From: Clostridiales bacterium
GTDB lineage: Bacteria > Bacillota > Clostridia > Lachnospirales > Lachnospiraceae
Direction: 5' to 3'
NCBI GenBank assembly: GCA_012839295.1
Contig: DUNO01000066.1
Coordinates: 124,001 to 188,000, forward strand
Length of the DNA: 64,000 bases
Below the pieces are notes generated by a model that did not search any database, was not told the origin of the DNA, and worked only from the letters and a program-made list of their open reading frames with translations. Position numbers and translations under genes: made by a program. Shown here in pieces: positions 12,258-29,706 of the stretch (within the stretch, counting starts at the first letter, position 1; each line of letters begins with the position of its first letter).

Positions 12258-13316
12258 TCACTCCGCATAAGGCTCATACTCTGGTGCGAAGGCTCCTTCT
12301 GCACAACAGACCGGGCACGCATAGGCTCCTTCCTCAGCACAGCTTTTCACTGTATAAAAGGGTTCATCAAAAAATAGCAGCCCATCTCCCTGTAGCTGCG
12401 GACAGCTGCTCCTGTGGTATATCAGATACCAGCTTTTCTGCTCCAGGTAGAAAACATCATTTTTTGATACTTTTGCTCCTGAAGTGGCAATTCTACTGTA
12501 AGCCTCACCCTGCCCGTCAAAGTAAGGGTAGCCCTGAAAGACCACGAACATGCTGTTCCTTTCCATATAATCCTCCCACTCGTGTCTGTTAATTACCGGA
12601 AGTGCAAAGTTATAGGTTATGCCATATTCTGACGCTATCCTGTTGTGCCTGTTTGTATAATAACCCAGGGAATCCTGAATCAGATTCACAAGCGTATTGT
12701 TTTTTATCTCTGTAAACTTATCGTCGGATAACATGAGGTTTCCGGGTCTGGCATCCCTGAAAGCGGAATATTCTTCCCCCTCCTGTAGCTCATGGTAGTC
12801 CATGACGAATACTTTCTGGCTGCCGGACCCATCCAGCAGTCCGTTTTTGTCGTACAGAGTTATCCTGTCCCCCAGGGTGAAGCCGTAGATAAAGTCCCCA
12901 TCCTCGTAATAATACGGGAATCTCTCTGACCATCTTTTTGTCAGTTGAACCTTTCCATCAGCCCCCGTATAGATGTCACTGTAAAAGACGTAGTAACCAT
13001 CCTCCAGCGTGACACATACGACTGGGACATAAAGGTTCAGCTTTTCCCTTTCTTCCGGGTCTGAGAGTACGCCGAAGGATGCAGCCAGGGAGATGAAAAA
13101 GCTGTTGATGGCAGAATCCTTGTCCACAATTATCCTGTCGTCATCCCCAACCATGACGAACGAGGCAACCCCGTCGTCAATGGCAGTATTGAGGTTCTGG
13201 TCTATCCTGTCTTTGTCTTTTACGGCTGCCTTGAGGTTGTCCGTCCTTGTGTCCAGGACCACGACACAGGATATCACGATTATCACGAAGACCAATATGA
13301 AATGGTATAGTTTCAT
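12258..13316 (-). CDS. Membrane-anchored extracytoplasmic protein of the pilus-like locus
   Basis: The 352-residue product has one N-terminal membrane segment (about residues 4-21, FILVFVIIVISCVVVLDT) and a long, probably external domain. The end is cysteine-rich, with SSCPQ near 308 and CAEEGAYACPVCC near 331-343. The N-terminal layout (short start, one helix, then a region of charged and small residues) matches the pilin-like and TadE/TadF-like proteins that precede it. It is the last gene of the run starting at 29,706, with 30 bases between it and the preceding giant protein. No homologue was recognised. A minor pseudopilin or assembly factor is the best inference. Confidence 0.6.
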   Translation of the reverse strand: MKLYHFILVFVIIVISCVVVLDTRTDNLKAAVKDKDRIDQNLNTAIDDGVASFVMVGDDDRIIVDKDSAINSFFISLAASFGVLSDPEEREKLNLYVPVVCVTLEDGYYVFYSDIYTGADGKVQLTKRWSERFPYYYEDGDFIYGFTLGDRITLYDKNGLLDGSGSQKVFVMDYHELQEGEEYSAFRDARPGNLMLSDDKFTEIKNNTLVNLIQDSLGYYTNRHNRIASEYGITYNFALPVINRHEWEDYMERNSMFVVFQGYPYFDGQGEAYSRIATSGAKVSKNDVFYLEQKSWYLIYHRSSCPQLQGDGLLFFDEPFYTVKSCAEEGAYACPVCCAEGAFAPEYEPYAE

Positions 13317-13346
13317 TGTTCCTTTCCACCCCTTTTCCCTGTATTC

Positions 13347-15887
13347 CTACTGCCCGTTTTCACGGATATAACCGCCGTCCTCCGCCCTAATGCCCTGTTC
13401 CGGTAACGTCCTGTGCACAAAGGAGCTCAGTTTGCCTCCCAGGCTCCTGCTGCTGTTTGCCAGGGATATTTTAAAATAATCACCCCTGGAGAAATAATAG
13501 ATCCCGGTACCCTCATAGAGTTCCTTCAGGATGTCCTCCGTAAATTTCTTTTTCTTATATTCCATGACACTCCCCGTGAAAATGGGGGTTCTTGCCGCAC
13601 AGTACGGACACCCCGGGTCGGAATCATCCGGATACAGCTCATAGAACCTGCCGCAGACCGTACATTTTGTTAGGTTGCGCTTTACGGTTACTATGACTGT
13701 TACTGTTTTCCCTTTGTACCCAATGGTCACCGTCTGGATCCCGATGTAGCCGTTGTCAAGGTTGTCCACGTATCCTCCCGTCACTGCCTCCCTGTGCCCG
13801 TCCAGGTAAGTGGCCAGGAGCTCCACCCCGTTCTGCTCCAGCGTGGTTCCCCGGTAGATTGTTAATTTCCCGTCAGCCGGCGTGACCAGCTTCAGGGAGA
13901 AAAGCCAGACCCGGCAGTATGGGCACCCCGGGTCACTGCCGTCAGCCTCCAGGTTGTAAACATGGCCGTTGGGGCAGGTCTTACTCCTCGGAACTACGGA
14001 TATGGTGATGGTACAGGTTTTTGTATGGGACACCCCGTCCACCGGGTATGTATGTGTCAGCGTGGCTGTCTGCTCCTGGCACAGGTTTGCCGTGCTGAAA
14101 TCCGTCGTTGCGACCAGCGTTGCGACTGATCCGTCCGCATAAGTAACGACAACCGTCGTGATGAGCGGGTCATTCTGGTATACCACTTGCACCGGATGGG
14201 TCGGCGTGATGCTGGTGACCGTAGATCCACAATCAAGGGTTGCATCTTCTGTTTTCCCACAGTTAAAAATCCACTTATTTTTTTCTCCTACGAATGTACA
14301 AGTACTTACATTTCCATAATGATAACCTACTCTATTCTCATATAACATATAATTTCTTAAATATCCTATTATAGGTTGACCTTCAGTATAAATATATCTA
14401 GCCTGTTCATATGAATTCCAACCTCCAGATCCGTCTTCATACCATTCCCAATATTTTTCAGTACTAGTATATGGTAATCTTGAAAACATTATTGTTCTTG
14501 CAGCAGGAGAATTTTTATCTACAAGGAATTCATTTACTTTAACAAGTAAATCAGTATTAAGCATACCAGCCAAATCATATAAAGTTAAATACTGCTTCGT
14601 AAAATCACCATTTAAAGAATCAAGAGTATAATTATTATCTGCAATTATAACCTCCTGTCCATATTGATTCTTTCCGTATACCCATTCGCTTATATTAAAT
14701 TTATAACTAAACATAAGAGTTCCATTAATAACAGCTGTTTTAAATGTAATATTAGCATTTCTTAACCTATGCCCCGTAAGTGCAATATCAGAATCATTTC
14801 CTTCGACAGAATACTGGAAACTCTCGGGCGCATAACACACAACACCATTGTATCGATTAATCATCTCCTGTGACCATGCAAAGATATTACTAAAATATCT
14901 TTCCGTAGGAGGGTTTATCCAGCCTAAATCCCTATAATAATAAGGGTCATAATGCGCTATATAAGAATACAATATTCCACCACTCATATTGGGCTGTCCA
15001 CTGCCCGAAGATACACATTGATGAAAACTATGGCACCCGTCTACCAATGTACCACCTTTAAACGACTGTGGGAGTGTCTGACCCGGATATGCGACTTCAT
15101 TTTCAAATCCTACATCGTCATTTACTCCGTCCCCATTACGGTCTATGTTATAGCCGCACGTCCAGAACTTCTCTACAGTAACCTTGTCTTTACCAACTAC
15201 ACGGTATCCTTCCAAACCACAATTGGAACACCCGCCATGCCAGCCGCCCGTAGGCTGGTTACTTTGCCAAAACTGTGCCTGCCAACAATAATAAGTATGA
15301 CAATTAGCACATTCCCCCATCCAATATACATAAGTGGTCCAATACTGACAACCGTAGGTATGTTTATGGTAATGCGTATAGGTAGATCGTTCGGTATGTT
15401 TATGCCCCGTATAACATGCCTCCGTATGTATATGCGTTGGCGAAGATCCTGTGTTCACTGCGGAGGCCATCACGCTTTCGTTCGTCTCCGTGTTCAGGCT
15501 CCCCGTGTAGACCGGATCCGTCACTTCCGGGTTGTCCGTCGTAACCGGGACATAGTGGTATACGTTAGATCCGGGGAACTGGGAATCCTGCAGGTCAATG
15601 ACCTCCCCAGGTGTCCGGAACCGGTATTCCGGCTCCTGCACCGTCATCCAATGCTCCAGGGCTATGTCATAGGTCAGGCCTGTCCTTGACAACCCGTCCA
15701 GGAATTCCCCGTACCTCTCCTTCGTAAGGTAGCCGTCGCTCCTGACCTCCTCGACCAGGCTTTTCGTGCCAGTATCCGAGACGGTCTGCGTTAATGCATC
15801 CTGTTTCATGGAAAAATAAACGAGGGGGAACAGGAAAAAGACCAGGATGGCAAGTATGATGTCTATGATATGGTCCAATGGTTTCAT
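13347..15887 (-). CDS. Giant anchored Cys/His-rich Ig-like protein (short paralogue)
   Basis: The 846-residue product has one N-terminal membrane segment (about 7-26) and a conserved segment DGYLTKERYGEFLDGLSRTG (51-70) shared with its neighbour. A His/Cys-rich module follows (about 152-290), with HIHTEACYTGHKH, GECANCH and GGCSNCGLEGYRV. After a long middle region come Ig-like Big_3-type domains (about 555-632 and 665-736), each followed by a ribbon CPNGHVYNL..DPGCPYC (638-658) or CTVCGRFYEL..DPGCPYC (742-763). A conserved tail, ILKELYEGTGIYYFSRGDYF (786-805), is also shared. The pairs of CxxC suggest zinc binding, but outside the cell. It starts one base after the stop of the longer paralogue. 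DNA from about 14,260 to 15,050 is visibly AT-richer than its flanks. Function unknown; likely a structural or adhesive component. Confidence 0.7.
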   Translation of the reverse strand: MKPLDHIIDIILAILVFFLFPLVYFSMKQDALTQTVSDTGTKSLVEEVRSDGYLTKERYGEFLDGLSRTGLTYDIALEHWMTVQEPEYRFRTPGEVIDLQDSQFPGSNVYHYVPVTTDNPEVTDPVYTGSLNTETNESVMASAVNTGSSPTHIHTEACYTGHKHTERSTYTHYHKHTYGCQYWTTYVYWMGECANCHTYYCWQAQFWQSNQPTGGWHGGCSNCGLEGYRVVGKDKVTVEKFWTCGYNIDRNGDGVNDDVGFENEVAYPGQTLPQSFKGGTLVDGCHSFHQCVSSGSGQPNMSGGILYSYIAHYDPYYYRDLGWINPPTERYFSNIFAWSQEMINRYNGVVCYAPESFQYSVEGNDSDIALTGHRLRNANITFKTAVINGTLMFSYKFNISEWVYGKNQYGQEVIIADNNYTLDSLNGDFTKQYLTLYDLAGMLNTDLLVKVNEFLVDKNSPAARTIMFSRLPYTSTEKYWEWYEDGSGGWNSYEQARYIYTEGQPIIGYLRNYMLYENRVGYHYGNVSTCTFVGEKNKWIFNCGKTEDATLDCGSTVTSITPTHPVQVVYQNDPLITTVVVTYADGSVATLVATTDFSTANLCQEQTATLTHTYPVDGVSHTKTCTITISVVPRSKTCPNGHVYNLEADGSDPGCPYCRVWLFSLKLVTPADGKLTIYRGTTLEQNGVELLATYLDGHREAVTGGYVDNLDNGYIGIQTVTIGYKGKTVTVIVTVKRNLTKCTVCGRFYELYPDDSDPGCPYCAARTPIFTGSVMEYKKKKFTEDILKELYEGTGIYYFSRGDYFKISLANSSRSLGGKLSSFVHRTLPEQGIRAEDGGYIRENGQ

Positions 15888-15888
15888 G

Positions 15889-18800
15889 TCAGATGGTTAC
15901 CTCCCCTCCGTAAGTACGGCTTTCCTTCCTCTTGTTCTCCGATTTCCTGCCCCGGAACAGCCCAATGATCCGGGTTCTTGCCGAATCTCTGGTAACGCTC
16001 ACCGTCAACGTAAAGTAATCCCCGTCCTGTAGGTGGTATACCCCGTCCTCCAGAAGTTTTTTCAGGATCTCCTCCGTATAAACCGTATCAAAGTAGAAGA
16101 CTGCCCTTTCCGCGTCCCCTTCCCCGGAGCAGTAGGGGCACCCAGGGTCTGCCCCGTCCTCGTTCAAGTAATACTGTGAACCGCATACGGGGCAGGTAAC
16201 GATGTCCAGGGTGTCGACTACCTCAACTGTGAGGGTTGTGGTGAACTCCCCATAAGTTACCGTTACCGTCTGTACCCCAAGTACGGAGGAATCAAACCCG
16301 GTATAGGTAAACCCGGTGTAAGTGATTTCCCTATGGGTATCGCGGTAGATTAGGATGACCTGGAGGTTTAAGTCCGACCGGTATATCACCCGGTTCCCTC
16401 CATTCCTAAGCTGCGCCTCGATCCCGTCTAGCGTCCTGCTGCATACCGGGCAGCCCTTGGGGTACTCATGCCGGGAATATACCGTGTGGCAGTAGGGACA
16501 GGTTGCCAGCCCTTCCTCAAGCACCGTGACATGCACACTCGTCACGGCACTCTTATAATATATGGGTACGTCAAATTCGCCCGTGGTGTCGGCCGTAAAA
16601 TCTGTGCCCCAGCCATCCACCTCTTCCGTGTGTCCATCCCTGAAAGTTGCAGTTACTGTTATGGGCAGCTCCCCATAGCGTTCTACCGTCATGTCTTCCG
16701 GTGCCGCCGATATGCTGACGACCTCAGAACGGCAGACGGGGCATCCTGGATCCGTCCCGTCCGGATTCAGGGAATAGATGTTCCCACAGACCGGGCAGGT
16801 CTTCCCGCTGCTGACTGTGACCATGACATGGGCCGTAAAATTGTCATAGGTGACCGTCACGTCCTGCAGTCCCGTTTTTTCCGGGTCATAGTTGCTGTCC
16901 CAGCCGCTGAGGATGCCTGTCCTCCCATCCCGGTAATATGCCGTTACCGTTATAGGAAGCTCCTCCCCCTTCCTTACCGTGACTTCCTCAGGGGACACGC
17001 TGATGGATACAACCGCCCCTGAGCAGGTAGGGCACCCCCTATCCACGTCATCGTCGTCCAGCTCGTAGACCGTACCGCAGACCGGACAGGTGGCAGTAAG
17101 CCTGCAGACCGTTACACTTGCCGTGGCAGTCCTCCCCACGCCGTCCTCCGTATAGGACAGGGTCACGGTCTGCTCCCCAAGCTTTACGCCATCAAACCCC
17201 AGGACGTTAACCCCCAGCACCTGGCTGCTTGTCCCGTCGCTGTAGGAAGCTGTCACGGTGAAAGCTGGATCCGTATACCTTGTTACCTCCTGGGATGCAG
17301 GTAACACCGTGATTCCGGTAAGGGTCTTGCGGCTTTTCACGGTAACATCCACCGTACAGGACTTCGTCCCCGTTGTTTTCGCATTGTCCACCAGCCCGTG
17401 GTAGGTAAGCGTGACCGTCTGTGTACCCAGGCTGTTGCTGTCATAACCGGATGCGGTGCAGCTGACCGTCTTTACCGAACCGTCCATCATAGTAGCCGTG
17501 GCGCTTGTTATGATTGGATCCCCCTTATATACAGTCTGTACGGGATTTGTCGGTGTCAGGGAGGTTACCACGTCACCGCAGTCCAGGGTAGTATCCTCCG
17601 TAAGGCCGCAGCCGTTCCATTGGTTGGGAGGCCCGGCTTGGTATGCACAAAGGCTTACCTGGCCATAGGCATATATCCTATTCATGCCGCCGGCAAGGGT
17701 AGAATATCCCGCATCTGCCCTATACCCTATTACAGGCTGTCCGTAAACAAAACCATAATTATAAATTTGATTTCCCCAGTCATCATACGTTATGAAGTGG
17801 TTTGTATAAGGCTGCTTAACAAGTGGGCAGACCTTGGCAAGGGTAGAGTTTTTATCCTTAATTAAAGAATAAAAATAGTCAGCTATATTGGTTATGTCCC
17901 CCAAATTTGCCAGATCACTGATTGTAAAATAATTTTTTGTGAAATGCCCGTCAGCAGACTTCAAAGTGCAGGGGGGCATATTCCCGCCATGGATTGACGA
18001 ATAAAAATAATTAGGTACTGTGAGGGTAACCTCATAATCAAAGACGATGTTATTTTCCAGCAGCCGGGGATAAAGCCTTACCGTAATGTATGTTTCTACC
18101 TCCGTGGAGTAATTAAAACCACCAAGGCTGGATGTAACACCCATGGTTGTCTTATAATTGTACGTGATCCTTAAATCCTGGGGAACACTACAAGTTACCC
18201 CGCCATACCTATTTATAATCTCGGATGCCCAGACATTGATTCTATTATAATAAAAGCTATAGTCGTAATTGAGATTGCCACCACTATACTCCGGGACGCC
18301 ATTAGCACGGGCCCGCGCGTAGTCATAGATCTGTATGGTATCATAATTCCCGTTATAGGGTCCATTCAGTCCGACCGGGGTATGCCCATATGAATTTATG
18401 TGGTTGTGGTAACTCCAACATCCACCGTATACAGTTCCAAGTGAGTAACCCTGCGGTAAAGCCTGGCCACCATAGGCATATGTCACATCATATGGTACAC
18501 TGTTATCGTAAATCCCGTCACCGTTATCGTCTTTGTTATACCCACAGGTCCAGTAATACCCGGTCAAAACTTTGTCCTTACCTGCTACACGGTAGCCTTC
18601 CAGGCCGCATTTGGGGCATCCACCGTGCCACCCACCGGTAGGCTGGTTGTTTGCCCAGTTCTGCAGCTGCCAGGTGTACACAGTATGGCAGCTGGCACAC
18701 TCCCCCTCCCAATACCTATAAGTAATCCATAACTGGCAATTGCCGCTGTGGGCATGATAATGGGTATATGTCGGTTTTGCGGTATGCCTGTGCCCTGCAT

Positions 18801-19197
18801 AGCAGTCATCCGTATGAACATGACCTAAAGAAAAGATTTCTGCTCTATGTCCTGTTGTGGCGGCTGCCGGTTCATATTTTGCCAAAGCGGCAGGAGCCTT
18901 TTCCCCTGCTTCCTTTTCTGCTTCCTTTTCTGCTACTTCCCGCCCGGTCACCGGATGGGCAATTTCCAGTCCAATGTCATAGGAGTCACCCGTCCGCCCC
19001 AATGCCATAAGGTAATCCCCGTACATTTCTATCGTTATGTATCCCTGGTGCCTCACCCTGTCCGCAAACTCGGCAGATATGGTATCAACCGCACCATACA
19101 GTACTTCTTCCTGCCCCTGTGCGGCATACTGGAGTGGGATGATTGCCACCATGACCACCACTACCAGTACAGCTATAAACCTTCCGATTGAATCCAC
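15889..19197 (-). CDS. Giant anchored Cys/His-rich Ig-like protein (long paralogue)
   Basis: The 1102-residue product shares the plan of the next gene. It has an N-terminal membrane segment (about 6-22) and QGYITIEMYGDYLMALGRTG (51-70), then a His/Cys-rich module (about 125-262) with HVHTDDCYAGHRH, GECASCH and GGCPKCGLEGYRV. A unique middle region follows. Five Ig-like segments (about 541-620, 625-697, 728-796, 825-892, 922-995) come next, with ribbons CPVCG..GCPTC (704-725), CPVCG..GCPVC (801-822), CPYCH..GCPVC (900-919) and CPVCG..GCPYC (1002-1023). The tail EILKKLLEDGVYHLQDGDYF (1043-1062) is conserved. It lies 12 bases after the M50 protease gene. The difference in repeat number between paralogues suggests growth by module duplication. 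Expected to stand outside the membrane as a fibre tip, shaft or adhesin; not recognised as a named family. Confidence 0.7.
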   Translation of the reverse strand: MDSIGRFIAVLVVVVMVAIIPLQYAAQGQEEVLYGAVDTISAEFADRVRHQGYITIEMYGDYLMALGRTGDSYDIGLEIAHPVTGREVAEKEAEKEAGEKAPAALAKYEPAAATTGHRAEIFSLGHVHTDDCYAGHRHTAKPTYTHYHAHSGNCQLWITYRYWEGECASCHTVYTWQLQNWANNQPTGGWHGGCPKCGLEGYRVAGKDKVLTGYYWTCGYNKDDNGDGIYDNSVPYDVTYAYGGQALPQGYSLGTVYGGCWSYHNHINSYGHTPVGLNGPYNGNYDTIQIYDYARARANGVPEYSGGNLNYDYSFYYNRINVWASEIINRYGGVTCSVPQDLRITYNYKTTMGVTSSLGGFNYSTEVETYITVRLYPRLLENNIVFDYEVTLTVPNYFYSSIHGGNMPPCTLKSADGHFTKNYFTISDLANLGDITNIADYFYSLIKDKNSTLAKVCPLVKQPYTNHFITYDDWGNQIYNYGFVYGQPVIGYRADAGYSTLAGGMNRIYAYGQVSLCAYQAGPPNQWNGCGLTEDTTLDCGDVVTSLTPTNPVQTVYKGDPIITSATATMMDGSVKTVSCTASGYDSNSLGTQTVTLTYHGLVDNAKTTGTKSCTVDVTVKSRKTLTGITVLPASQEVTRYTDPAFTVTASYSDGTSSQVLGVNVLGFDGVKLGEQTVTLSYTEDGVGRTATASVTVCRLTATCPVCGTVYELDDDDVDRGCPTCSGAVVSISVSPEEVTVRKGEELPITVTAYYRDGRTGILSGWDSNYDPEKTGLQDVTVTYDNFTAHVMVTVSSGKTCPVCGNIYSLNPDGTDPGCPVCRSEVVSISAAPEDMTVERYGELPITVTATFRDGHTEEVDGWGTDFTADTTGEFDVPIYYKSAVTSVHVTVLEEGLATCPYCHTVYSRHEYPKGCPVCSRTLDGIEAQLRNGGNRVIYRSDLNLQVILIYRDTHREITYTGFTYTGFDSSVLGVQTVTVTYGEFTTTLTVEVVDTLDIVTCPVCGSQYYLNEDGADPGCPYCSGEGDAERAVFYFDTVYTEEILKKLLEDGVYHLQDGDYFTLTVSVTRDSARTRIIGLFRGRKSENKRKESRTYGGEVTI

Positions 19198-19209
19198 GTT
19201 TCCCCCCTC

Positions 19210-20190
19210 CTACGTTTCCCTTATTTCCCTTATCAATGACTCACAGAATATGGCTTCGCCCTTATATATATAATTTTTCTTATTTTTTTCAAGTTTAAGG
19301 AGTACTGTTTCCTTATCCGCCCGGTTCGAGAATATATCGTATGCGGAACGGATCCGGATCGAATTGAAATCCCCCGCAGCCTTCAGGCACTTATGCAGCT
19401 CCATTAAGATACCGCTGTCCTTAACCGTAGTGTCATTGCGCAGGATGCTTATGAAAAACTGTTCCGACAGGATCATGTTCCTGATCATCACGGGAACCCT
19501 GTCCATTACGGGGTAGAACTGGTCCAGGCATTCGCATGCCTTAGCCCATTCTCTCTTGTCCATGTAACGGTAGCATTCCAGTATTTTATGGTACCCTACC
19601 AGTGAATTTGTAAAATCTGCATCTTCAGGTATCGTCAGTTCCCCCATGTCTAATTCCCCGTATGTTTTCCCGGCAATAAGATCCCGGGTCATTTGCAGCT
19701 GGGCCTGGTTACAGCTCCTGGCCAGCCCGTCCTTTTTCATCTCGGACAGGACCGTCCCGTCCGTTACTGTGGCTCCCCCCTTCCCTGGGAGGATGTTCAG
19801 TGCCGCAAAGCCTGCCCCGTAAAAGGCAAACAGTACTATCCCCATGGCATGCACAAAAGGTACCTGACCACGGGATACCCACAGGTAAACCAGGGCGGCA
19901 ACCCCAGTTGCCATGTTAAGTATTACCCCTCCTAAGGTAACCAGGGCGTAAGGGTACTTTTCCTTTTCCGGGGGCAGCATCAGACACTGGCCCAAAGACC
20001 CCGGGCTCCGGTGGTACCTTATCCTGTAACTACTCCCCTCCCTTACCAGTGCCAGGCCAAAGACCCGGAACAACAGGAAACGGTATCCTGTTATCCGTCC
20101 AAAGATGTAATGTCCCAGCTCGTGGACTACCGCCTGTGCGGCGAATGCAAATGCCACGTAAAAGACTGACCACAATATTAGGTTTATCAT
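19210..20190 (-). CDS. M50-family membrane metalloprotease
   Basis: The product (326 residues from the chosen start) is a membrane protein with the zinc-protease motif HELGH (residues 23-27) in its first hydrophobic region. The second M50 motif, NILPGKGGATVTDG, follows at 132-145 with the third zinc ligand Asp144. Site-2 proteases of this type cut substrates within or next to the membrane. The C-terminal half (about 150-326) is soluble, helical and of unknown function. The frame is open for 36 residues upstream, but AGGAAGG lies before the ATG at 20,190. It sits between the pilin-like genes and the giant anchored proteins, and no type A24 prepilin peptidase is visible in the locus. It is therefore a candidate for processing pilin-like or anchored proteins, which is inference. 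Confidence 0.85.
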   Translation of the reverse strand: MINLILWSVFYVAFAFAAQAVVHELGHYIFGRITGYRFLLFRVFGLALVREGSSYRIRYHRSPGSLGQCLMLPPEKEKYPYALVTLGGVILNMATGVAALVYLWVSRGQVPFVHAMGIVLFAFYGAGFAALNILPGKGGATVTDGTVLSEMKKDGLARSCNQAQLQMTRDLIAGKTYGELDMGELTIPEDADFTNSLVGYHKILECYRYMDKREWAKACECLDQFYPVMDRVPVMIRNMILSEQFFISILRNDTTVKDSGILMELHKCLKAAGDFNSIRIRSAYDIFSNRADKETVLLKLEKNKKNYIYKGEAIFCESLIREIRET

Positions 20191-20206: not shown

Positions 20207-20587
20207 TTAATCCGTGATGGAGCGGTAGACCACCATCTGTATTTCCCCATTCCCACCATAGACGTAATTTTTCCTGTATCCCGTCTGCCTGATCCCATAA
20301 AGAGGTATGTCCTCGGGGTCGTGATCCGACCTGTTGATGGTGATCCCGTCTATCTCTATGCTGTATTCCAGCCTGCCATATAGCGTCGCAATAAGTTCCG
20401 CATAATAAACAGTTTCCACGCCGTCCCCATCGTATTGCATATATAGCTCCTTATCCCTGTAAGACTGGCCGGTTACCCCCTCAAGGGCTGACAGGTACAG
20501 CTTTGTATGGTGGACCAGGAGGAAAACCCCGGTACAGAACATGATGGCCGAAAAGGCCATGTAAATTAGTTTGGTTGCATGGTTCAT
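20207..20587 (-). CDS. Divergent pilin-like protein
   Basis: The product (126 residues from the chosen start) has a short N-terminus, one membrane segment (about 7-25) and a small external domain. It keeps the YDG motif (52-54) followed by a helix YYAELIATLYG (61-71), which aligns with the YDG..GSEVV..I segment of the three preceding pilin-like proteins. Otherwise it is diverged. The start was set at 20,587 by GGAGG three to four bases upstream; the longer frame would read through a strong hairpin at 20,604-20,629 and overlap the previous gene. Probably a minor pseudopilin. Confidence 0.6.
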   Translation of the reverse strand: MNHATKLIYMAFSAIMFCTGVFLLVHHTKLYLSALEGVTGQSYRDKELYMQYDGDGVETVYYAELIATLYGRLEYSIEIDGITINRSDHDPEDIPLYGIRQTGYRKNYVYGGNGEIQMVVYRSITD

Positions 20588-20603
20588 TTCGCCTCCGGTT
20601 CCA

Positions 20604-20629: not shown

Positions 20630-20640
20630 TTCATCGTGGG

Positions 20641-21594: not shown

Positions 21595-22095
21595 TCAGGT
21601 CTGGGTAAATTCGATGCATATGATGATGTTGTTGGCATCTTTGTACACTTTCCCGGAGAAGGAGGCCTGCGGGTTGATGTACCAGGCATCCTTCTTTTCC
21701 GAGGACAGCTGCGCGTCAGCATTTCCAGAAACTTTTGCCCCCAAGGTTGCCGAGGTTCCGGAACCCGTCGTTGCTGCTGCATTGAAGGTATAATTGTAAT
21801 CCCTGTCTTTGTCCGCCTTTGTGCTGACCCTGATTGCCACATATTCATCCGAATTGATTACCTTTTTGATCAGGTTTACGACTTCACTTCCCTGGACCGT
21901 GGTTCCGTCATAAATTGCCTTGTCAATATCGGAGTACTGGCTTGTCATGCTGTTCAAATTATTGGTTGCCGCATTTACCGAGGATTTTCCCTCATTGGTT
22001 ATCTTAAAGCCTACTGCGCATAAAACGCATACAATGATTACTGTCGCCACAAGGATCAATACCTTGGTTGCCTCACTTAGATTATTTGTTTTCAT
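21595..22095 (-). CDS. Pilin-like protein, first of a tandem set
   Basis: The product (166 residues) begins MKTNNLSEATKVLIL, has one membrane segment (about 11-30) and an external domain with YDG (62-64) and GSEVVNLIKK (69-78). The external region has a Thr/Ser/Ala-rich insert (about 105-135) missing in the paralogues. AGGAG eight bases before the ATG at 22,095 fixes the start; a GTG three codons earlier overlaps that site. It is the pilin-like gene nearest to the motor genes, the usual place for a major subunit. No exact family recognised. Confidence 0.7.
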   Translation of the reverse strand: MKTNNLSEATKVLILVATVIIVCVLCAVGFKITNEGKSSVNAATNNLNSMTSQYSDIDKAIYDGTTVQGSEVVNLIKKVINSDEYVAIRVSTKADKDRDYNYTFNAAATTGSGTSATLGAKVSGNADAQLSSEKKDAWYINPQASFSGKVYKDANNIIICIEFTQT

Positions 22096-22137
22096 TCGGT
22101 TCACTCCTATTTTCTATTAAATTAGTTATTGGAACTC

Positions 22138-24153
22138 TTAATAAGCATTCATCATCTCCTGGAACATTGCCAGCGCATCTATGCTGGTTACGACCATTGG
22201 CAGGATCAGATAAATCAACACCAGCCCCGCCGGCAGGTAGGACAAAAGCTGGGCTCTATCTGCCCTCTTTTGTACAAGGATCTCATTCTCCAGCTTCCTC
22301 CTCTCATGGTAATTCTCCCGGTCGGCCGCAATTTCATCAAAAGCCTTATAAATCGCCACATCATCACACCGGATCAGGTTACCCACCAGTCTCTTGAAGG
22401 GCGGGGAGGCTTCGCTCTCCCGCATCCTCACAAGGGCTTCCACATCCCCGCTGTTATAATCATTAATACACTCCTGGAGCGGCTGTTTAAATACAACCGC
22501 AAACAGCTCCATCTCCTCAAGAAGATTCTTGACGGTGATATGGTCACAGTACATCAGCATGTAGATAATGGCATTCAGCTGGTTTACCTCATCCTCCATG
22601 TTCATCTGCCGGATACTTTTTTTATAAAGGATCAGCCAATAAGGAAGATGGAAGGCAAACACCCCGGTACAGATACAGGCAAGCAGTTCATACCACCGGA
22701 AATATTCCAGGTGATACTTCCTGATCCTATCAATCACTTCATCTGCCACCGCATCATTTAGCTTTTCCTGGTAAAAGGTTCCCTGTCTGGCCAATTCCTC
22801 CAGTATTTCGGCTTTTTCCAGGCCTTGTTTACCAAGATACCGTGACACATATTCGAGGATTGTTCCCTTTATCATCTCCTTCTGGGATGCATTTACTGTG
22901 ACAATTTCCTTGGGAAGCTCCGGAACCTTGTCCGTCAGATTATGCCGGTTGACTCCATGGAGATAGACAAAAAACAGGATCATTCCCAGACTTGTCACGG
23001 CTGCAAGAAGCATCCTCTTTAGCAACAGCTGCCTTGGGGTGATTGTTTCCCCAAGTCCTTTTAAAACGGTCTGGAGCCTTGCTACCTTGGAATAATTCTT
23101 CTCAGTATAGTTATCCAGGGCCTTATGCAGGAGGTCAAGCTGTTCCAGCCGCTTTAATAACGTATGCTCCCGGGATGCCGGCACCTTCATTTCCTTTAGA
23201 TGATTGTTCAATATATAGATCAGTAATGCCATCAGGAGCATTAGGGTAACATAGATCATACCGGAGCTTCCGTTATAAAAACTGTCCATCTCCGGCAGCA
23301 TGGATAAGCCATAGCTTTTTATCGCATCAATCGGGACGCAGACTGCAATTGCCACAAAGGTGAAGCCGGAGAACTTGTACCGGATTTTCTTTATTTTAAG
23401 CACTTCATTTTGGATTTCCTTTTTCAGGTTGTCCAGGTTTGCCGTAAACAGGTTATGCCCCTTTACCTCCTTATCCCCATATTCTATGACATTCACACAG
23501 AGGGAAAGGAACATTTTCATGTACCGGTTATGCATCGTGGAATTATAAGCAGCTACTGCATCTTTCAGGGAACTGGACAGGATGACCTCGTAGATCTTTT
23601 TCCCATGCAGCTTCATCTCAAGGCTTTTCGTCTCCTGCAGGGCGAGCAATATGGCATCATCCACCATCTGGTTAAGGTAGAAACTATGCCTTACATTCGA
23701 AAGGAATACACACATCTCCTCAAGGATCCTCAACTCCAGGTTCACGGTTATGAATGCTACGATTTCCGTATTCATAACATATATCAGTAGAAGGGCAACG
23801 CCTGCGTTATTAAAATTAGGCTTGGTGAAAAACAGGAGCAGAAGGGTAATCCCACAAGACAACCAGGTAACGAACACTGTCCCTGCAGTCTTCCTCTGAA
23901 TGTCATCCGCTTCTCCCGGATATAAAAGCTCGTACAGCCTCCCGATCCGCTGGGTATATCCGGCGGTCAAGGCTGACCGGGTTAAGACCTGGTATAGCCT
24001 GCGGTAGATGTTTCTCCGGGGCTTCTCCGACAGGGAGGCCCCATAATTTTTCCTGCTCCTCTGTCTCCGGTCCAAAATCTCAAGCAGGCAAAGGACGAGG
24101 GGCAACACCAGCAGCACCGCAATCCCCATCACAAAGAGCAACTGCTTGTCCAT
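22138..24153 (-). CDS. Fused TadB/TadC-like (GspF-type) inner-membrane platform protein
   Basis: The 671-residue membrane protein contains two copies of the T2SF/TadB-TadC plan, each with a cytoplasmic helical domain followed by membrane segments. The first half has segments near 5-22, 92-135 and about 255-320; the second has segments near 382-402, 505-530 and 640-660. Tad systems normally encode TadB and TadC as separate proteins of about 300 residues; here one long chain does both. The gene overlaps the ATPase stop codon (TGATG), with GGAGG upstream, so the two are translationally coupled, as expected of the ATPase and platform of a pilus motor. The assignment rests on architecture and position. 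Confidence 0.75.
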   Translation of the reverse strand: MDKQLLFVMGIAVLLVLPLVLCLLEILDRRQRSRKNYGASLSEKPRRNIYRRLYQVLTRSALTAGYTQRIGRLYELLYPGEADDIQRKTAGTVFVTWLSCGITLLLLFFTKPNFNNAGVALLLIYVMNTEIVAFITVNLELRILEEMCVFLSNVRHSFYLNQMVDDAILLALQETKSLEMKLHGKKIYEVILSSSLKDAVAAYNSTMHNRYMKMFLSLCVNVIEYGDKEVKGHNLFTANLDNLKKEIQNEVLKIKKIRYKFSGFTFVAIAVCVPIDAIKSYGLSMLPEMDSFYNGSSGMIYVTLMLLMALLIYILNNHLKEMKVPASREHTLLKRLEQLDLLHKALDNYTEKNYSKVARLQTVLKGLGETITPRQLLLKRMLLAAVTSLGMILFFVYLHGVNRHNLTDKVPELPKEIVTVNASQKEMIKGTILEYVSRYLGKQGLEKAEILEELARQGTFYQEKLNDAVADEVIDRIRKYHLEYFRWYELLACICTGVFAFHLPYWLILYKKSIRQMNMEDEVNQLNAIIYMLMYCDHITVKNLLEEMELFAVVFKQPLQECINDYNSGDVEALVRMRESEASPPFKRLVGNLIRCDDVAIYKAFDEIAADRENYHERRKLENEILVQKRADRAQLLSYLPAGLVLIYLILPMVVTSIDALAMFQEMMNAY

Positions 24154-25973
24154 CAGGAAGCACCTCCCATCTGGTTGAACAAAAGGAACCGCATCCCATC
24201 CTCCTGGCTTAGGTTCTTTAAAATCCGGGCTACACTCCTTTTTGAAAGCGGATTTTTAAAAATGTACCTGCCTTCCTCGAAGGTAATGATTTCCCTTGTT
24301 GTAAATGCCCTCCTTCTTGCAAGCGTCCTGAGTGACTCTGCGATATCATCCCAGCGGTTTCCGGTATTAATATTCGCCCTGGGGCTTGGTATGATCTCTG
24401 CAATATAGCTGATATGGCGCTTCCCGTCCGCAGTCTTTTCCCAATGGATGTCGATGTGGATTGCATTTGCCACCTGTTCCTCCGCCGTCATTTCATTATG
24501 GAAGCTCCCATATTTGGATAATGTAGCATTCCTGAAATAGTCCACTGTATCCTCGGGTGACATGGTATGCACAGTCCCAATGGTGCACTTTGTTCCGGCC
24601 TGGGTCAGGGTAATATAGGCATTCGCCTGCTGTGCGTCTGCGATCTCCCCTAAAATCATAACCATGCCATCTGTTTTTTTCTGTATATTAATAGCATCCA
24701 TGAGGCTGACCTCCTGGGTTCCCCGGAAAGGAACCACATTCAGCTCCGGGTAAAGATTGTTCAGCCAAAGCTCATATTCTGCCTCCGTGGTACGGATCTG
24801 GTAGCGCTGGTCCATAAACTGGAGCATCACCTTTAAAAAGGTCGTCTTCCCGGAGCCCTGATCCCCGGATACGACGATATTCAAAAGCCCCTTCACCATC
24901 CATTTGGTCAGTTCGATTACCACATCACTGCTCTCATCGGCCAGCAGCTCTGCCAGCCCCATGGCCTTTGAGCTTTCAAACTTCCGTATGAAAAATGCCC
25001 AGCCGGAGGTTAGCTTCGGCCTGGTGACTACCACGCGGCTTCCGTTATAAAGGTAGGATAGCTTAAAACCGTTGGAGGAGGTAAGATGCCCGATATTATC
25101 ATACCGGTAAAGATTCTTGCAGATACGGATCAGCTCCCCGGGGCTTCCAAAACCAAGGAAGGACAGCCGGACTGATTTCCCGTTAAAGATAATCCATATG
25201 CTGTCGAAGGATTTCTGTCCGCTAATATCAGCCGTTCCCATGATCTCCTCCATGAAGTTGTACTGGTCATTCGTAATACCGCTTGTCCCCCCTGATATCC
25301 CATCAATTGCATTTTGGTAGATCAATTCATCCACACAGCCGTATCCATAGGATAATTGGAATATCCTTTGGACCACTACCTCAAGCTTCAGCACATAGGA
25401 TAAATCACCGTAGAACCGGCCAAAGGCTTTGTGGATATCCTCCTCTGTAACCTCATAATAAAGACCATTTTCATTTGCCTTTTCAAACTCTATTTCCTGC
25501 TCCTTTAGGAATACTCCAAATGCCTGCAGCCCATGCCTTAAACGGTAGGCCTGAAGCAGTATCTCGAATTTGTCCTGGGCTGTGAGCTGTAATGGGTCGT
25601 TAAAGGGTATTACCGCATCAATTGTTCCTTTATCAATGCCCAGCCTGTTCTGCAGAAGATCCTTGAGGTAATCCTTAATGAATTCCTTTTCACCTAAATT
25701 TCCTTGGGCGCATGACCTTACTGCCGTACTGATCCTGGCCTTCTGCTGCTCCCTTTTCTTCATTTCACTCCTGCTGATATATAGCTCCAGCAGGTTTTGA
25801 TTGATGATCTCGTTTAACATGGCTTTCACCTGCCCGCAAAGGTAAGGAAGCGCATATGGGCTTTCCAACTCTACAGCTTCCGGCTCTACCTCCTTTTTAA
25901 AGATAAAAAAGACAGCAAGGCATGCAGCCGCTATGAGTACAACCATGATTAAGGTATTATTCCCCATGTACAT
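24153..25973 (-). CDS. CpaF/TadA-like secretion ATPase with N-terminal membrane anchor
   Basis: The product (606 residues from the chosen start) is a VirB11/TadA-type ATPase. Its motifs are the Walker A loop GDQGSGKTT (about 370-378), an acidic Walker B-like MVMILGEIAD (437-446) and the His-box TVHTMSPED (about 467-475). It would power assembly of the pilin-like subunits. Unlike classical TadA/CpaF it begins with a hydrophobic segment (about 7-25), predicting direct membrane attachment. The start at 25,973 was chosen because AGGAG lies eight bases upstream and the frame further up is a low-complexity repeat shared with the end of the preceding gene. It overlaps that gene by 17 bases. Confidence 0.9.
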   Translation of the reverse strand: MYMGNNTLIMVVLIAAACLAVFFIFKKEVEPEAVELESPYALPYLCGQVKAMLNEIINQNLLELYISRSEMKKREQQKARISTAVRSCAQGNLGEKEFIKDYLKDLLQNRLGIDKGTIDAVIPFNDPLQLTAQDKFEILLQAYRLRHGLQAFGVFLKEQEIEFEKANENGLYYEVTEEDIHKAFGRFYGDLSYVLKLEVVVQRIFQLSYGYGCVDELIYQNAIDGISGGTSGITNDQYNFMEEIMGTADISGQKSFDSIWIIFNGKSVRLSFLGFGSPGELIRICKNLYRYDNIGHLTSSNGFKLSYLYNGSRVVVTRPKLTSGWAFFIRKFESSKAMGLAELLADESSDVVIELTKWMVKGLLNIVVSGDQGSGKTTFLKVMLQFMDQRYQIRTTEAEYELWLNNLYPELNVVPFRGTQEVSLMDAINIQKKTDGMVMILGEIADAQQANAYITLTQAGTKCTIGTVHTMSPEDTVDYFRNATLSKYGSFHNEMTAEEQVANAIHIDIHWEKTADGKRHISYIAEIIPSPRANINTGNRWDDIAESLRTLARRRAFTTREIITFEEGRYIFKNPLSKRSVARILKNLSQEDGMRFLLFNQMGGAS

Positions 25974-26886
25974 GCAGTCCTCTCCTTCCCCAAGGATATT
26001 GCCTCCCGCCCCAGGGATGTTCATTCCCGGATTTACCCTCGAGCCTATTCCTGGATTTCTCCTCAAGACTATCCCCGGGTCTACTCCCGGATTTCTTCTC
26101 CGCCATGTCAAGAATCTTTCCGGCCGCGCCCACAGTCTTTTTCATAAAATAATAATTGTCATTCTGATTGCCTACGTTAATATTCCTTTTGATAAAATCA
26201 ACCACGCGGCTGTCGGCCTGTGCATCCTTATATGCCGTATTATAAGGAATGACACCTGAATTTGCTTTTGTAATGCCGCCATATTTCTTTCTGAGGTTAT
26301 TGATATTATACTTAGATTCTGCGTCATAGGCTCCAAACAAAAAGAATTTATTGCCGGGAATCAATTTATCATACTGCCTGAAATACAGATCAATAATCTC
26401 CAGGTTCTGGTTCAGGTTAATGACCGTAAGCTCGGCGTCTTCCATAAGCTTTATGGAAAGCTCCTTTCCTCCGGGATTAGTGTCAATGAACATACAGTCA
26501 TAGAACTGTTCCATTGCAAGGAATACCTTCGGTACCGCCATTCCAACTGCATAATCAAAGGATTCCCGGTTCGTCTTGGTGGTGCCGGGCAACAGGCTCA
26601 GGCTTGTATCACCAAGGGCAATACAGCAGTTTTCAACCAAGCTCCGGTTTAACCTTTCTGCCTTGAAGTTCCTGACCAGCGCATCAATGCCCACATCCAG
26701 GAAATAGTCCGGGGAGGCCTTCGAATTCCTCTCAATTAAGGGCGCCTCCAGGTTGTTATAATTAAAATGGGTCTGGGTTACCAAGCATTTTCTCTTATAC
26801 GAAACCGCACTGACCAGTGACAGGGCAAGGATATTGCTTGTCGTGCCGGTTTGCCCATGTACCGGCGACCAGAATACAATTTTCAT
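25957..26886 (-). CDS. CpaE/TadZ-like MinD-family protein with degenerate P-loop
   Basis: The product (309 residues) resembles the MinD/ParA-like CpaE (TadZ) proteins that position Tad pili. It starts MKIVFWSPVHGQTGTTSN: the P-loop position is recognisable, but both lysines of the deviant Walker A (KGGxGK[TS]) are missing. The Walker B region CMFIDTNPGG (near 160) is kept. ATP binding is therefore doubtful and a scaffold role more likely. The start overlaps the previous stop codon (TGATG), with GAGGAGG upstream. The last 45 residues are a charged, Gly/Pro/Arg-rich repeat reflecting a CCCGGATT-type DNA repeat (about 25,990-26,110). Confidence 0.7.
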   Translation of the reverse strand: MKIVFWSPVHGQTGTTSNILALSLVSAVSYKRKCLVTQTHFNYNNLEAPLIERNSKASPDYFLDVGIDALVRNFKAERLNRSLVENCCIALGDTSLSLLPGTTKTNRESFDYAVGMAVPKVFLAMEQFYDCMFIDTNPGGKELSIKLMEDAELTVINLNQNLEIIDLYFRQYDKLIPGNKFFLFGAYDAESKYNINNLRKKYGGITKANSGVIPYNTAYKDAQADSRVVDFIKRNINVGNQNDNYYFMKKTVGAAGKILDMAEKKSGSRPGDSLEEKSRNRLEGKSGNEHPWGGRQYPWGRRGLHVHGE

Positions 26887-27557
26887 CAGGTCACACCTCC
26901 TCTGCTTGCCGCCCTGTATGCCGTATGGATCCACCGCTTATCTGCCTCAGGACACAGCCTTCCAAGCTCCTTTACAAGATATTTTTTCAGCTCCGCAGAC
27001 AGCAGCTTAAACTTGAAGGATTCACCATTCTGACATAGCAGGGCGTTAAAATGATCATTCTCATTCAGATGAATCACCTCAGTCCCTACCCCATCCACCA
27101 TACCCTCCATTTCCTCGTCCAATAAATCCAGGCACACAGAGGAAAACACATTATTACGGATTACCAGGGATCTTCTCGGGCAGGCACTTTTGCACATGAT
27201 CCGCTTTACAGCTTCCATATTACAGGTAAAAAGATCTGTTACATACACTTCCCTGTTAGTATCCAAATCATAGGGTGATCCAGAGTAACCGGCAGAGATA
27301 AACACCGTGTCATAGGCATGTAAACACTCCTCCTCCGGCAGGAAAAGGGCAAAATCAATCCTTCGGAATGTAATGATCTCCTTCCTTTCATCCACGCCCT
27401 TCGGTACCGGCAGCATACTGGTAAAAGGACACCGTTCCATCCTTTTGCTATCTTCAATAATTAATACCTTCTTTTGCATTTTAGCCAACACACAGGCCTG
27501 ATAGAGAATAAGATCAAAGCTATCCAGCCCAATATAAGTAACCATCTCACTCACCAT
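26886..27557 (-). CDS. Hypothetical protein, probable degenerate MinD-like partner
   Basis: The 223-residue cytoplasmic product begins MVTYIGLDSFDLILYQACVLA, has a strand KVLIIED near residue 33, and has HAYDTVFISAGYSG near residue 80. These are at the positions of a MinD-type fold, but it has neither a P-loop nor a Walker B aspartate. No family was recognised. It sits between the SAF-domain gene and the CpaE-like gene, overlapping both by a few bases. The start is ambiguous between ATG 27,557 and ATG 27,545; the first has AGGAAGGG at about nine bases. Probably a scaffold or localisation factor of the same machine. Confidence 0.55.
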   Translation of the reverse strand: MVSEMVTYIGLDSFDLILYQACVLAKMQKKVLIIEDSKRMERCPFTSMLPVPKGVDERKEIITFRRIDFALFLPEEECLHAYDTVFISAGYSGSPYDLDTNREVYVTDLFTCNMEAVKRIMCKSACPRRSLVIRNNVFSSVCLDLLDEEMEGMVDGVGTEVIHLNENDHFNALLCQNGESFKFKLLSAELKKYLVKELGRLCPEADKRWIHTAYRAASRGGVT

Positions 27558-28569
27558 ATTCCATATCCCTTCCTACCGCCTCTTCCTCCTGGGTATAATA
27601 GAAAAAATCCGCGTCTCCTGCTTCCTTACTCCTGACTTCTTTATCCCCAGCTTCTTTATCCTGGATCCCCTTAACCTCCTTATCCGCCTCTTGCGCGGCG
27701 GTAGCAGAAGCCTCCCCTGCGCCAAGCTCCGGAAACTCATTGGGGGAAACATTCCACTCAATTGTACTGACATCCAAAGCCATGCTATCCGCCAGCCGGT
27801 TCTCAAGGGATTTGCGTACCTCTTTATTTAATTCCTGTGAACAACGTTCTACTATATTGGGATTTTTTTCGATTAATGACAGAATAGACAGACTGGGTGT
27901 ATAAGTAATTACTGAAGCTTTTTGGATATTTGGCTCGATATACTTGGTGACATATAATTTTGACCCGGTGTACAGGCTTGCATCCACAATTGCGGCGGAC
28001 ATTCTGAGTATTTCCTCTTCCTCCATCCATAGAAAAATGGCTGCAGTATCCGTATCCAGGCCTTTGATGACCTTCTTGGACAGCACCACGTAGCTTTCCC
28101 CGTTGGGATATAGCATCCGTATGTCCACAGTGTCATCCTGTTCCATATTAGAATTTAAATGAATCACCTCATACTGCGCTTCCCTTAAGTTTGTGGTGAT
28201 GGAGCGGTCTGCTGCCATTGTAGCCATTACCTGTGTTCCCGCAGGTATGTTGATTAGCGCCAGCCTTCCTATCTGCTCCTCGCTGATAAAGGTTTCCTTG
28301 GCCTGTGATGAGTATACCCTCTTCTTTACCAACCGCTCCCTGGTAATGATATCTCCGGCCGTAATATCCGCCGCAGCTACATACACCTCCCTCTGGTTTT
28401 CCTCCAGCTTCCTGTTGGCCTCAGCCAGAAGCTCACGGTATTCCTGCTTGATCTGGCCGGTGATGACCAGTGTCGTTAATACTCCTGCCCCTCCTATTAC
28501 GGTAATGCACAGGATTGAAACAATAATATATTGCTTCGTTGTTCTTTTAAATCTGCTGTATATCCTCAT
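27547..28569 (-). CDS. CpaB/RcpC-like SAF-domain protein
   Basis: The 340-residue product has one N-terminal membrane segment (about 13-37) and a short coiled segment (40-60). A SAF domain follows (about 61-125): EVYVAAADITAGDIITRERL, then GRLALINIPAGTQVMATM. This is the plan of CpaB/RcpC, an extracytoplasmic Tad assembly factor. The C-terminal end is a charged, low-complexity linker of repeated DKEAGDKEVRSKEAG type (about 290-320) and may be flexible. It overlaps the small membrane gene upstream by four bases (ATGA) and the next gene by about ten. Confidence 0.85.
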   Translation of the reverse strand: MRIYSRFKRTTKQYIIVSILCITVIGGAGVLTTLVITGQIKQEYRELLAEANRKLEENQREVYVAAADITAGDIITRERLVKKRVYSSQAKETFISEEQIGRLALINIPAGTQVMATMAADRSITTNLREAQYEVIHLNSNMEQDDTVDIRMLYPNGESYVVLSKKVIKGLDTDTAAIFLWMEEEEILRMSAAIVDASLYTGSKLYVTKYIEPNIQKASVITYTPSLSILSLIEKNPNIVERCSQELNKEVRKSLENRLADSMALDVSTIEWNVSPNEFPELGAGEASATAAQEADKEVKGIQDKEAGDKEVRSKEAGDADFFYYTQEEEAVGRDMEYGE

Positions 28570-28811
28570 AGCTCACCCCTTAAAATTAGTTTAATAAATA
28601 AGAAAAGCATTGCCGCAATCATCAGCTGCATTATGGTATACAAAATAATAATTGCATTCCTTCTGCCTTCATCCGGCTTTTTCCCTTCTCTGCCCTTTTT
28701 CCTTAAGGGCCCGATGCCGTCAAGTAAGTCCTTCATATGGAACAGGCCAAAAAACATCAATATCCCTATGGTAACTAACGCCAGGATTCTAATTAATTCA
28801 AATGGATGCAC
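28566..28811 (-). CDS. Small two-helix membrane protein
   Basis: The 81-residue product has two hydrophobic segments (about 6-24 and 52-76) joined by a basic loop rich in Lys, Arg and Gly. The start is GTG with AGAGGA six bases upstream and overlaps the end of the CpaE-like gene before it. No family was recognised. Its fixed place in the operon suggests an assembly or regulatory subunit of the pilus-like machine. Confidence 0.6.
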   Translation of the reverse strand: MHPFELIRILALVTIGILMFFGLFHMKDLLDGIGPLRKKGREGKKPDEGRRNAIIILYTIMQLMIAAMLFLFIKLILRGEL

Positions 28812-29706
28812 AATACATCCTCTCCGGGGGAAATCCGGCTCCCTCTTTTCCTTCCTCCTGGAGCATATGGAGCATCTCCTCCTCCAGTCCCTTGTTCCTT
28901 TCTGCCTCCACTGCTTTTTTAAGAATGAGGTAGGTAGCCTTTCTTATGGCATGCATGAAGAGGAAGTTTGGACTTTCCCTGCTACATCCATTATAATAGT
29001 CAATAAAATCCTTGACTCCACCATTCATGCAGGCAACCTGAAACAGTTCATTCTCAGGGATTGCTACCAGATTCTCCAACGGGATATCATACATATGGCT
29101 GATTTTCTTAAGGGACAGCTTCGTATGGTATTCATAGCTACTGATTAAAAATACTGACTTGGAAATTAATGAGGAATAGTTAAGGAAGAACTCATCTAAG
29201 ATACTTTGATTCTGGCATAGATTTACCACGATTAAATCAGCTTTTTGAAGAATTGTCTTTGTGCTTAGGCTATGATGGCTGGCCGTACCAATAAAGCTAA
29301 TATCAGCATATCCTTCCATCATTTTTAATAAATGCTCAATCCCATATTCAAATTCATAATCAAAAATTTCATTATGGATCACCCGCCCCTTAGGGATATA
29401 AGACAGCCGGTCCGGAATAATCTGTTTTATGTAGGATGTAAGGACATGCTTTGTAGCATCCCCGCGGTAAATCCTGCGGACCAGCCCCTCCATCCCGTTA
29501 CCGTCATAGTAATTGGATCCCGCTTCATTCATAAAACGGATCGTTTCCCTTCCATAGAACGCTGCCCTAAGGCTGCTCCTGCCCAGATAATTTTCCATCA
29601 TGACTACGGAATACGGATAACGGATTACACTGGCCACACTGATTGCAGCCATATTGGCAGTGACTGGGCATTTTTCATTTGCATTGCTCCAAAATGCAAT
29701 TACCAA
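28798..29706 (-). CDS. CpaE/TadZ-like protein lacking ATPase motifs
   Basis: The 302-residue product begins MVIAFWSNANEKCPVTANMAAISVA, which aligns with the start of the other CpaE-like gene of the locus (MKIVFWSPVHGQTGTTSNILALSLV). The P-loop glycines and lysine are gone, and the Walker B position reads ISFIGTASHH with no aspartate. Later segments DLIVVNLCQN and SVFLISSYEYHTKLSLKKI also match the paralogue (ELTVINLNQN, KFFLFGAYDAESKYNINNL). It is probably a non-hydrolysing partner. The start is TTG with GGAGGGG five bases upstream, and this is the first gene of the long operon. Confidence 0.7.
   Translation of the reverse strand: MVIAFWSNANEKCPVTANMAAISVASVIRYPYSVVMMENYLGRSSLRAAFYGRETIRFMNEAGSNYYDGNGMEGLVRRIYRGDATKHVLTSYIKQIIPDRLSYIPKGRVIHNEIFDYEFEYGIEHLLKMMEGYADISFIGTASHHSLSTKTILQKADLIVVNLCQNQSILDEFFLNYSSLISKSVFLISSYEYHTKLSLKKISHMYDIPLENLVAIPENELFQVACMNGGVKDFIDYYNGCSRESPNFLFMHAIRKATYLILKKAVEAERNKGLEEEMLHMLQEEGKEGAGFPPERMYCASI

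Follow-up and report, generated by a model that had tools for sequence, protein, structure and literature searches.

A conserved gene block of Clostridia and Paenibacillus that looks like a distant relative of fibre-building machines

Results

A tightly packed gene block with partly recognisable products

The window, by which we mean the whole 64,000-nucleotide stretch of DNA that was analysed, carries fifteen minus-strand genes between positions 29706 and 12258, neighbours being separated by -17 to +33 bases, and the tight block described in the initial annotation is thus present with all of its genes. A gap of 410 bases follows g15, after which two further minus-strand genes, g16 and g17, continue down to 6704. 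The operon probably ends there rather than at 12258 and includes the SLH-like and DUF5704 genes; the limits first assigned, 12258 to 29706, hold for the fifteen genes but are probably too narrow for the transcription unit. Numbering follows the direction of transcription.

28798..29706, minus strand: g01, MinD/TadZ(CpaE)-like protein with a degenerate P-loop, 302 aa (25% identical to g05 and alignable with its family; homologues found)
28566..28811, minus strand: g02, membrane protein, 81 aa (open reading frame; 0 homologues in 30 family loci searched)
27547..28569, minus strand: g03, SAF-domain CpaB/RcpC-like protein, 340 aa (Pfam SAF 2.6e-6; NCBIfam CpaB 2e-5, under cut-off)
26886..27557, minus strand: g04, conserved protein, 223 aa (homologues; without Pfam or NCBIfam family)
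25957..26889, minus strand: g05, MinD/TadZ-like protein that has lost its Walker A lysines (alignment; profile matches CooC 2e-4, ParA 1e-3)
24153..25973, minus strand: g06, CpaF/TadA-like secretion ATPase, 606 aa from an internal ATG (T2SSE 9e-13; CpaF best PDB match 1.5e-26; tree)
22138..24153, minus strand: g07, one long membrane platform protein, 671 aa (N-terminal half TadB-like by profile-profile comparison)
21595..22104, minus strand: g08, pilin-like protein (family alignment; AlphaFold model)
21100..21573, minus strand: g09, pilin-like protein (42% identity with g08)
20641..21087, minus strand: g10, pilin-like protein (36% identity with g08)
20207..20644, minus strand: g11, small pilin-like membrane protein (own profile overlaps the pilin-like profile)
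19210..20190, minus strand: g12, M50 (site-2-type) metalloprotease, from an internal ATG (Pfam M50 1.7e-5, under cut-off; HELGH)
15889..19197, minus strand: g13, giant 1, core residues ~1-93 and ~1040-1101 with an insertion between (alignment; Big_3 4e-14; four ribbon motifs)
13347..15887, minus strand: g14, giant 2, core residues ~1-98 and ~783-846 with an insertion between (alignment; structure model)
12258..13316, minus strand: g15, minor-subunit-like membrane protein, 352 aa (alignment; conserved in loci)
10534..11847, minus strand: g16, SLH-like protein (SLH 0.004, under cut-off)
6704..10531, minus strand: g17, DUF5704 protein, 1275 aa (Pfam 7.7e-45; co-occurrence with the system)

The start of g06 is probably the ATG at 25973, inside a longest reading frame that begins at 26111, and that of g12 is probably the ATG at 20190, likewise internal. 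Pfam and NCBIfam name the T2SSE ATPase, the SAF/CpaB protein, the Big_3 and zinc-ribbon-like parts of the giants, and DUF5704, with M50 (g12) and the SLH-like part of g16 found under cut-off; they give no useful family name for the pilin-like proteins, the platform, the CpaE-like proteins, g04, g11 or g15. Elsewhere on the minus strand of the window, cobalamin and lysine riboswitches score above the gathering threshold at 1503-1739 and 36421-36603, respectively, and a tandem Ig-like repeat protein (Big_2-like by eye) at 30168-31172 on the plus strand points away from the operon.

The block is conserved across Clostridia and some Bacilli

A search with the ATPase through a family sample of 200 genomes, including the window's own, gave matches at 1e-10 in 167. 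Most of the matching rows are of a short, canonical TadA kind; the long kind that marks the system, taken as rows of at least 140 bits, occurs in 28 of the 200 genomes. A scan of named genomes yielded 513 confirmed stretches, the best 80 of which were used as loci and come from Anaerocolumna, Alkaliphilus, Thermoclostridium, Paenibacillus, Tumebacillus and many uncultured Clostridia. Together with 30 family-genome regions they make up 110 loci (103 distinct), and 75 distinct loci are eligible for counting, having at least 3 kb upstream and at least 6.5 kb downstream of the ATPase. Because the ATPase served to pick these loci, its presence is not itself a finding. Rebuilding the HMMs on this same set also means that weak members do not count as independent evidence.

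Among the matches listed, MinD-like, platform, pilin-like and core genes are each present in 75/75 eligible distinct loci and gene order is maintained in 69/75, while homologues of g11 (73/75), g15 (69/75), g04 (67/75) and the SAF protein (61/75) are found alongside DUF5704 (19/75), g16 (16/75), M50 (2/75) and A24 prepilin peptidase as detected by a home-made profile (1/75). The small g02 had no homologue among the 30 family loci searched. At its core the block is one conserved system, as had been proposed, and this neighbourhood comparison extends it through Lachnospiraceae, other Clostridia, Paenibacillus and Tumebacillus. The case named in advance as speaking against a single system was that related ATPase loci would lack the giant and M50 genes; M50 is indeed mostly absent, and the huge inserts of the giants are confined to a few lineages, but a homologue of the giants' core is present in 75/75. 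In locus L067 (11635-13998) a 787-aa reading frame, cut by the contig end, takes the place of g01; by eye, it joins MinD-like parts to a long, charged coiled-coil region.

A CpaF-like motor and a one-piece platform

Several assignments of the initial annotation, made from the letters of the sequence, held up in profile searches. The ATPase family profile places CpaF structures at the top of its PDB matches, g03 is recognised as a SAF protein, and the profile of the CpaE-like family finds the ATPases CooC and ParA although its own Walker A lysines are gone. An ATPase tree was built from 44 domains, comprising 26 from the system, 16 from canonical TadA proteins encoded in genomes of the window's family and two from other ATPases of the window's own genome, PilT-like by eye, that served as the outside; three rows were removed because the P-loop pattern was missing or length insufficient. 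All 26 system ATPases form one clade with support of 100/99, beside canonical TadA. The stem of this clade measures 3.6 changes per column, a long branch that leaves its exact neighbour less sure than its unity.

The platform had been read as fused TadB and TadC, and only half of this is borne out. No Pfam match, and in particular no T2SSF, was found in any of 17 members of the family. Profile-profile comparison with canonical TadB matched the N-terminal half (probability 79-86, E 1.6e-5 and 5e-6); the C-terminal half gave no match in the comparisons tested, and the fusion is therefore only half shown.

Giant proteins are a small core subunit with large insertions

The two giant Cys/His-rich Ig proteins do exist, but they are not parts foreign to such loci, as they had first appeared. 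Among the matches listed, a counterpart of their core, mostly of 150-210 residues, occurs in 75/75 eligible loci, with huge inserts in a few lineages only. The giants are a conserved pilin-like subunit of ~175 residues carrying huge inserted zinc-ribbon/Ig modules, about 680 and 950 residues long in the window's two core subunits and made up of a Cys/His region and of zinc ribbons and Ig-like Big_3 domains in alternation. In the model of giant 2 both ends of the core are mostly above pLDDT 90, and Ig-like domains lie at ~553-634 and ~661-738. The modelled core begins like a pilin-like protein, with a 50-residue helix followed by strand, helix and strand.

The M50 gene is likewise present, with its HELGH motif intact, but outside the window it was found in only 3/110 loci, two of them in one genome, among the matches listed. 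It is accordingly a rare, lineage-specific accessory and not a core part of the machine. In M50-bearing loci, the window included, Ala or Gly directly follows Lys or Arg where the hydrophobic stretch begins in 1/8 pilin-like proteins, against 162/233 in loci without M50 (among the matches listed), a comparison in which the M50 loci come from three genera only and so are not independent.

Pilin-like proteins without a classical leader motif

The three co-linear pilin-like proteins and their divergent fourth relative were recognised correctly: g09 and g10 resemble g08 at the identities given above, and the profile of g11 overlaps theirs. The AlphaFold model of g08 (pLDDT 88.5, pTM 0.67) has a 56-residue N-terminal helix (residues 5-60) followed by beta strands; structure and fold searches with it matched no solved pilin. 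In a survey of 208 pilin-like reading frames from the named loci (best 80 of 513), none among the matches listed has, ahead of its hydrophobic segment, a classical [G/A]xxxx[E/D] motif, in keeping with the claim that no classical Flp pilin is encoded. In its strict form the motif rule caught 1/3 canonical proteins of the window's own genome and 0/208 pilin-like proteins, and in a loosened form 3/3 and 0/208; among the matches listed it also caught 5/61 g15 and 1/76 core proteins.

What most of these proteins share is a MENASKA-like N-terminal heptapeptide, here called MxN-type, seen in 157/208 among the matches listed. In the same listed matches residue 5 is acidic in 0/157, so that there is no Glu+5, and with position 7 left free Ala or Gly occupies it in 159/160; the window's g08-g10 have Val, Ile and Val there. 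Also among the matches listed, a Shine-Dalgarno sequence precedes the Met in 143/157 MxN-type frames, as against 121/800 random ATGs, and the Met is the first ATG, GTG or TTG past a stop in 146/157. This last count, together with the lack of a Glu+5 motif, was why leaderless pilins that are 'born mature' were at first our main reading; it was withdrawn, since Ala or Gly at position 7 fits a very short class III leader equally well. According to a review, prepilin leaders end in Gly or Ala, and Glu is often but not always present (PMC10191384). The heptapeptide would thus be either a minimal class III leader without Glu+5 or else an uncut N-terminus. Charge is greater on the N-terminal than on the C-terminal flank of the hydrophobic stretch in 176/207 pilin-like and 72/75 core proteins (among the matches listed), which favours a topology with the C-terminus out. 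In three plasmid records a pilin-like protein is annotated as 'ABC transporter permease'.

Prepilin peptidase lies elsewhere in the genome

Neither an A24 peptidase nor a secretin had been visible in the block, and both observations stand: there is no A24 gene on the window's contig, with five elsewhere in the same genome, and no secretin among the Pfam matches of the 17 proteins. Among the matches listed for family genomes, A24 lies within 10 kb of 0/32 long-type ATPase rows and of 18/22 canonical tadA rows of the same genomes. L094 is the sole named locus (best 80 of 513) in which A24 was seen, 4-6 kb upstream. Every tested genome with the system does encode A24 somewhere (27/27 family genomes and 24/24 more reached through named loci; G265, G304 and the window's own genome, G000, likewise), so use of a peptidase in trans is possible, and genomes free of A24 had to be dropped as a proof of peptidase-independence. 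The window's genome also has an ICE-like stretch (L073, G000:C65) with CpaB-like, CpaF-like and A24 genes of its own (names partly by eye) and, farther along the same contig, a TraG-D_C coupling protein.

DUF5704 accompanies the system

DUF5704 occurs in 25/28 family genomes with the system and in 1/172 without it (Fisher 2e-27, from genomes of different genera that nonetheless share ancestry). It lies on the block's contig in 9 of these 25 genomes and on another draft contig in 16. In a set of 299 genomes of the phylum, matches to the ATPase (threshold 1e-25) and to DUF5704 coincide in three genomes and occur in no others: that of the window and two that belong to one family. Among the matches listed for genomes behind the named loci, DUF5704 is present in 3/24, namely 1/20 reduced genomes (1.1-1.8 Mb, weakly) and 2/4 others. 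The start of g17 resembles an ordinary Sec signal (by eye), and the word DUF5704 was not found in the open-licence PMC literature searched.

Copies on large plasmids

The ATPase was found on 25 plasmid records from Bacilli, Butyrivibrio and Alkaliphilus and, as partial matches only, on two phage records. MOB-suite typed all 25 plasmids as non-mobilizable. In the stretch viewed of 12 plasmid regions there are genes for DUF5704 (8), a replication-relaxation protein (8), a coupling-type protein (6; annotated as TraM-recognition or conjugative DNA transfer) and a GGDEF-type protein (5), and in one region a separate Tcp-type conjugation set adjoins the block. TraG-D_C was found in 12/26 genomes with chromosomal copies and on the block's contig in three (11, 41 and 48 kb off); a coupling protein lies within 20 kb of the chromosomal block in 1/26 only. 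On these plasmids the block may be a mating or attachment pilus.

In L161, L164, L165, L167, L169 and L170 the block lies on large plasmids typed as non-mobilizable, with coupling-type and replication-relaxation genes adjoining, and in some of these regions GGDEF/HD genes lie downstream. Very large surface proteins, annotated as leucine-rich repeat and S-layer homology proteins, lie near the block's downstream end in L167 (26582-37684) and L170 (27227-36010), and a DUF5704 gene was not seen in these two plasmid blocks.

Discussion

The block shares with the Tad/Flp (type IVc) pilus a CpaF/TadA-type ATPase, a CpaB-like SAF protein, MinD/TadZ-like proteins and the TadB-like half of the platform; on account of its motor and parts we group it close to the type IV filament superfamily. 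It differs from Tad in having a one-piece platform in place of tadB and tadC, no Flp pilin and no Glu+5, no TadV in the locus, pilin-like proteins of ~150 residues with a predicted globular domain, and additional conserved g04, g11 and g15 along with DUF5704 as a frequent partner. We keep it outside Tad proper, since tests for an Flp pilin, for separate platform genes and for a locus-borne tadV came out negative. The nearest published description we found is the 'no Flp_2' group of tad-like loci (Imam et al., 2011; PMC3244431), which in the excerpted text are also clostridial and lack a protein with an apparent prepilin signal motif. Those loci, as excerpted, keep tadV and have a tadA not distant from other clostridial tadA, whereas the block is without tadV and its ATPase is distant; none of the five species named there is among the best 80 of 513 loci. 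No paper whose title or abstract describes the block was found in open-licence PMC, and it looks like a distant, undescribed relative of fibre-building machines.

From gene content, synteny, phylogeny, co-occurrence and the split core, all directly observed, we infer a filament, the position of its tip, the processing of its subunits and a role in attachment: the block probably encodes a Tad-like machine with which monoderm Bacillota build type IV filaments with adhesive tips. According to this model, the CpaF-like ATPase g06 would turn against the one-piece platform g07, with the degenerate MinD/TadZ-like proteins positioning the motor. The membrane-held g08-g10 subunits would be drawn into a filament or short pseudopilus that would traverse the wall next to the CpaB-like SAF protein, and the minor subunits g11, the core proteins g13 and g14, and g15 would initiate or cap it. 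The giant inserts of this lineage would then sit at the tip, where they are probably sticky or sensing and may bind other cells, polymers or surfaces, and the SLH-like and DUF5704 proteins would be the wall-side partner. Large modular minor pilins at Tad tips have precedent in the Myxococcus Kil pilus, whose minor pilins carry added modules at the tip; Kil is a Tad pilus that has a major pilin as well as a dedicated peptidase, while the modules of the block are inserted inside a small core (PMC12075869). A prepilin peptidase encoded elsewhere probably trims the pilin-like proteins, because most relatives' proteins start with a seven-residue segment ending in Lys-Ala/Gly, although the window's three lack the Ala/Gly. 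A borrowed peptidase has been proposed for MSH pili, whose loci are likewise without a prepilin peptidase of their own; in that paper's tree, as excerpted, MSH pili derive from T4aP and not from the Tad side (PMC6668835). It is unlikely that such a type IV filament machine needs no A24 at all, its N-termini being left uncut or, in the window's lineage, the M50 intramembrane metalloprotease having taken over.

If prepilin peptidase can be borrowed, the same might hold for the pilin, and the block would be a divergent ordinary Tad pilus using both the Flp pilin and the peptidase of the canonical Tad locus in the same genome. The presence of A24 in every tested system genome (27/27 and 24/24) and the example of the MSH loci (PMC6668835, as excerpted) suit this reading. 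It is nevertheless improbable, given that the block has conserved pilin-like proteins of its own with a predicted globular domain, which Tad pilins lack (PMC11067988, excerpted text), that its platform is in one piece and that a long stem separates the two ATPase clades. A pseudopilus-type piston that pushes proteins through the wall and makes no long fibre is distinctly unlikely. The lack of Glu+5, a residue through which Tad pilins contact one another (PMC11067988), would fit a piston, as would the single pilin-like gene in 35/75 eligible loci among the matches listed and the very large surface proteins downstream of some plasmid blocks; against it, 28/75 of these loci (again among the matches listed) have 5 to 7 pilin-like genes, no constant cargo gene was found, and the window's DUF5704 protein starts with its ordinary-looking Sec signal (by eye).

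The plasmid copies raise the further question of whether the machine belongs to conjugative elements and serves cell contact or DNA movement with a coupling protein. The 25 plasmid records with the ATPase, and the replication-relaxation and coupling-type proteins in 8/12 and 6/12 plasmid regions, point that way, and plasmid TP114 offers an example of a type IV pilus carried by a conjugative plasmid, although that plasmid is enterobacterial and its pilins, PilS and PilV, are classical T4 pilins unlike those of the block (PMC9045228, as excerpted). Yet chromosomal blocks mostly lie far from a coupling protein, MOB-suite types all 25 plasmids as non-mobilizable, and one plasmid has its separate Tcp-type set beside the block; a mating-pair or DNA-transfer apparatus is thus quite improbable as a general account, and we retain the filament machine with adhesive tips as the preferred reading.

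On that reading, genes now annotated as 'hypothetical protein' would become recognisable as parts of a single surface machine found in Clostridia, in Paenibacillus and on large plasmids of these bacteria, and DUF5704 could be assigned to it as a likely partner. The type IV filament superfamily would widen to include a form in which the Tad motor is retained, whereas the pilin and the platform layout differ and a dedicated peptidase is lacking. The giants show a route by which a small subunit resembling a minor pilin could become a large tip adhesin through insertion within a domain. In Anaerocolumna aminovalerica (L080, 14942-19627) the place between g11 and the core gene, taken in the window by the M50 protease and giant 1, is filled by a protein of 1561 aa that by eye has a signal-like N-terminus and long coiled-coil stretches.
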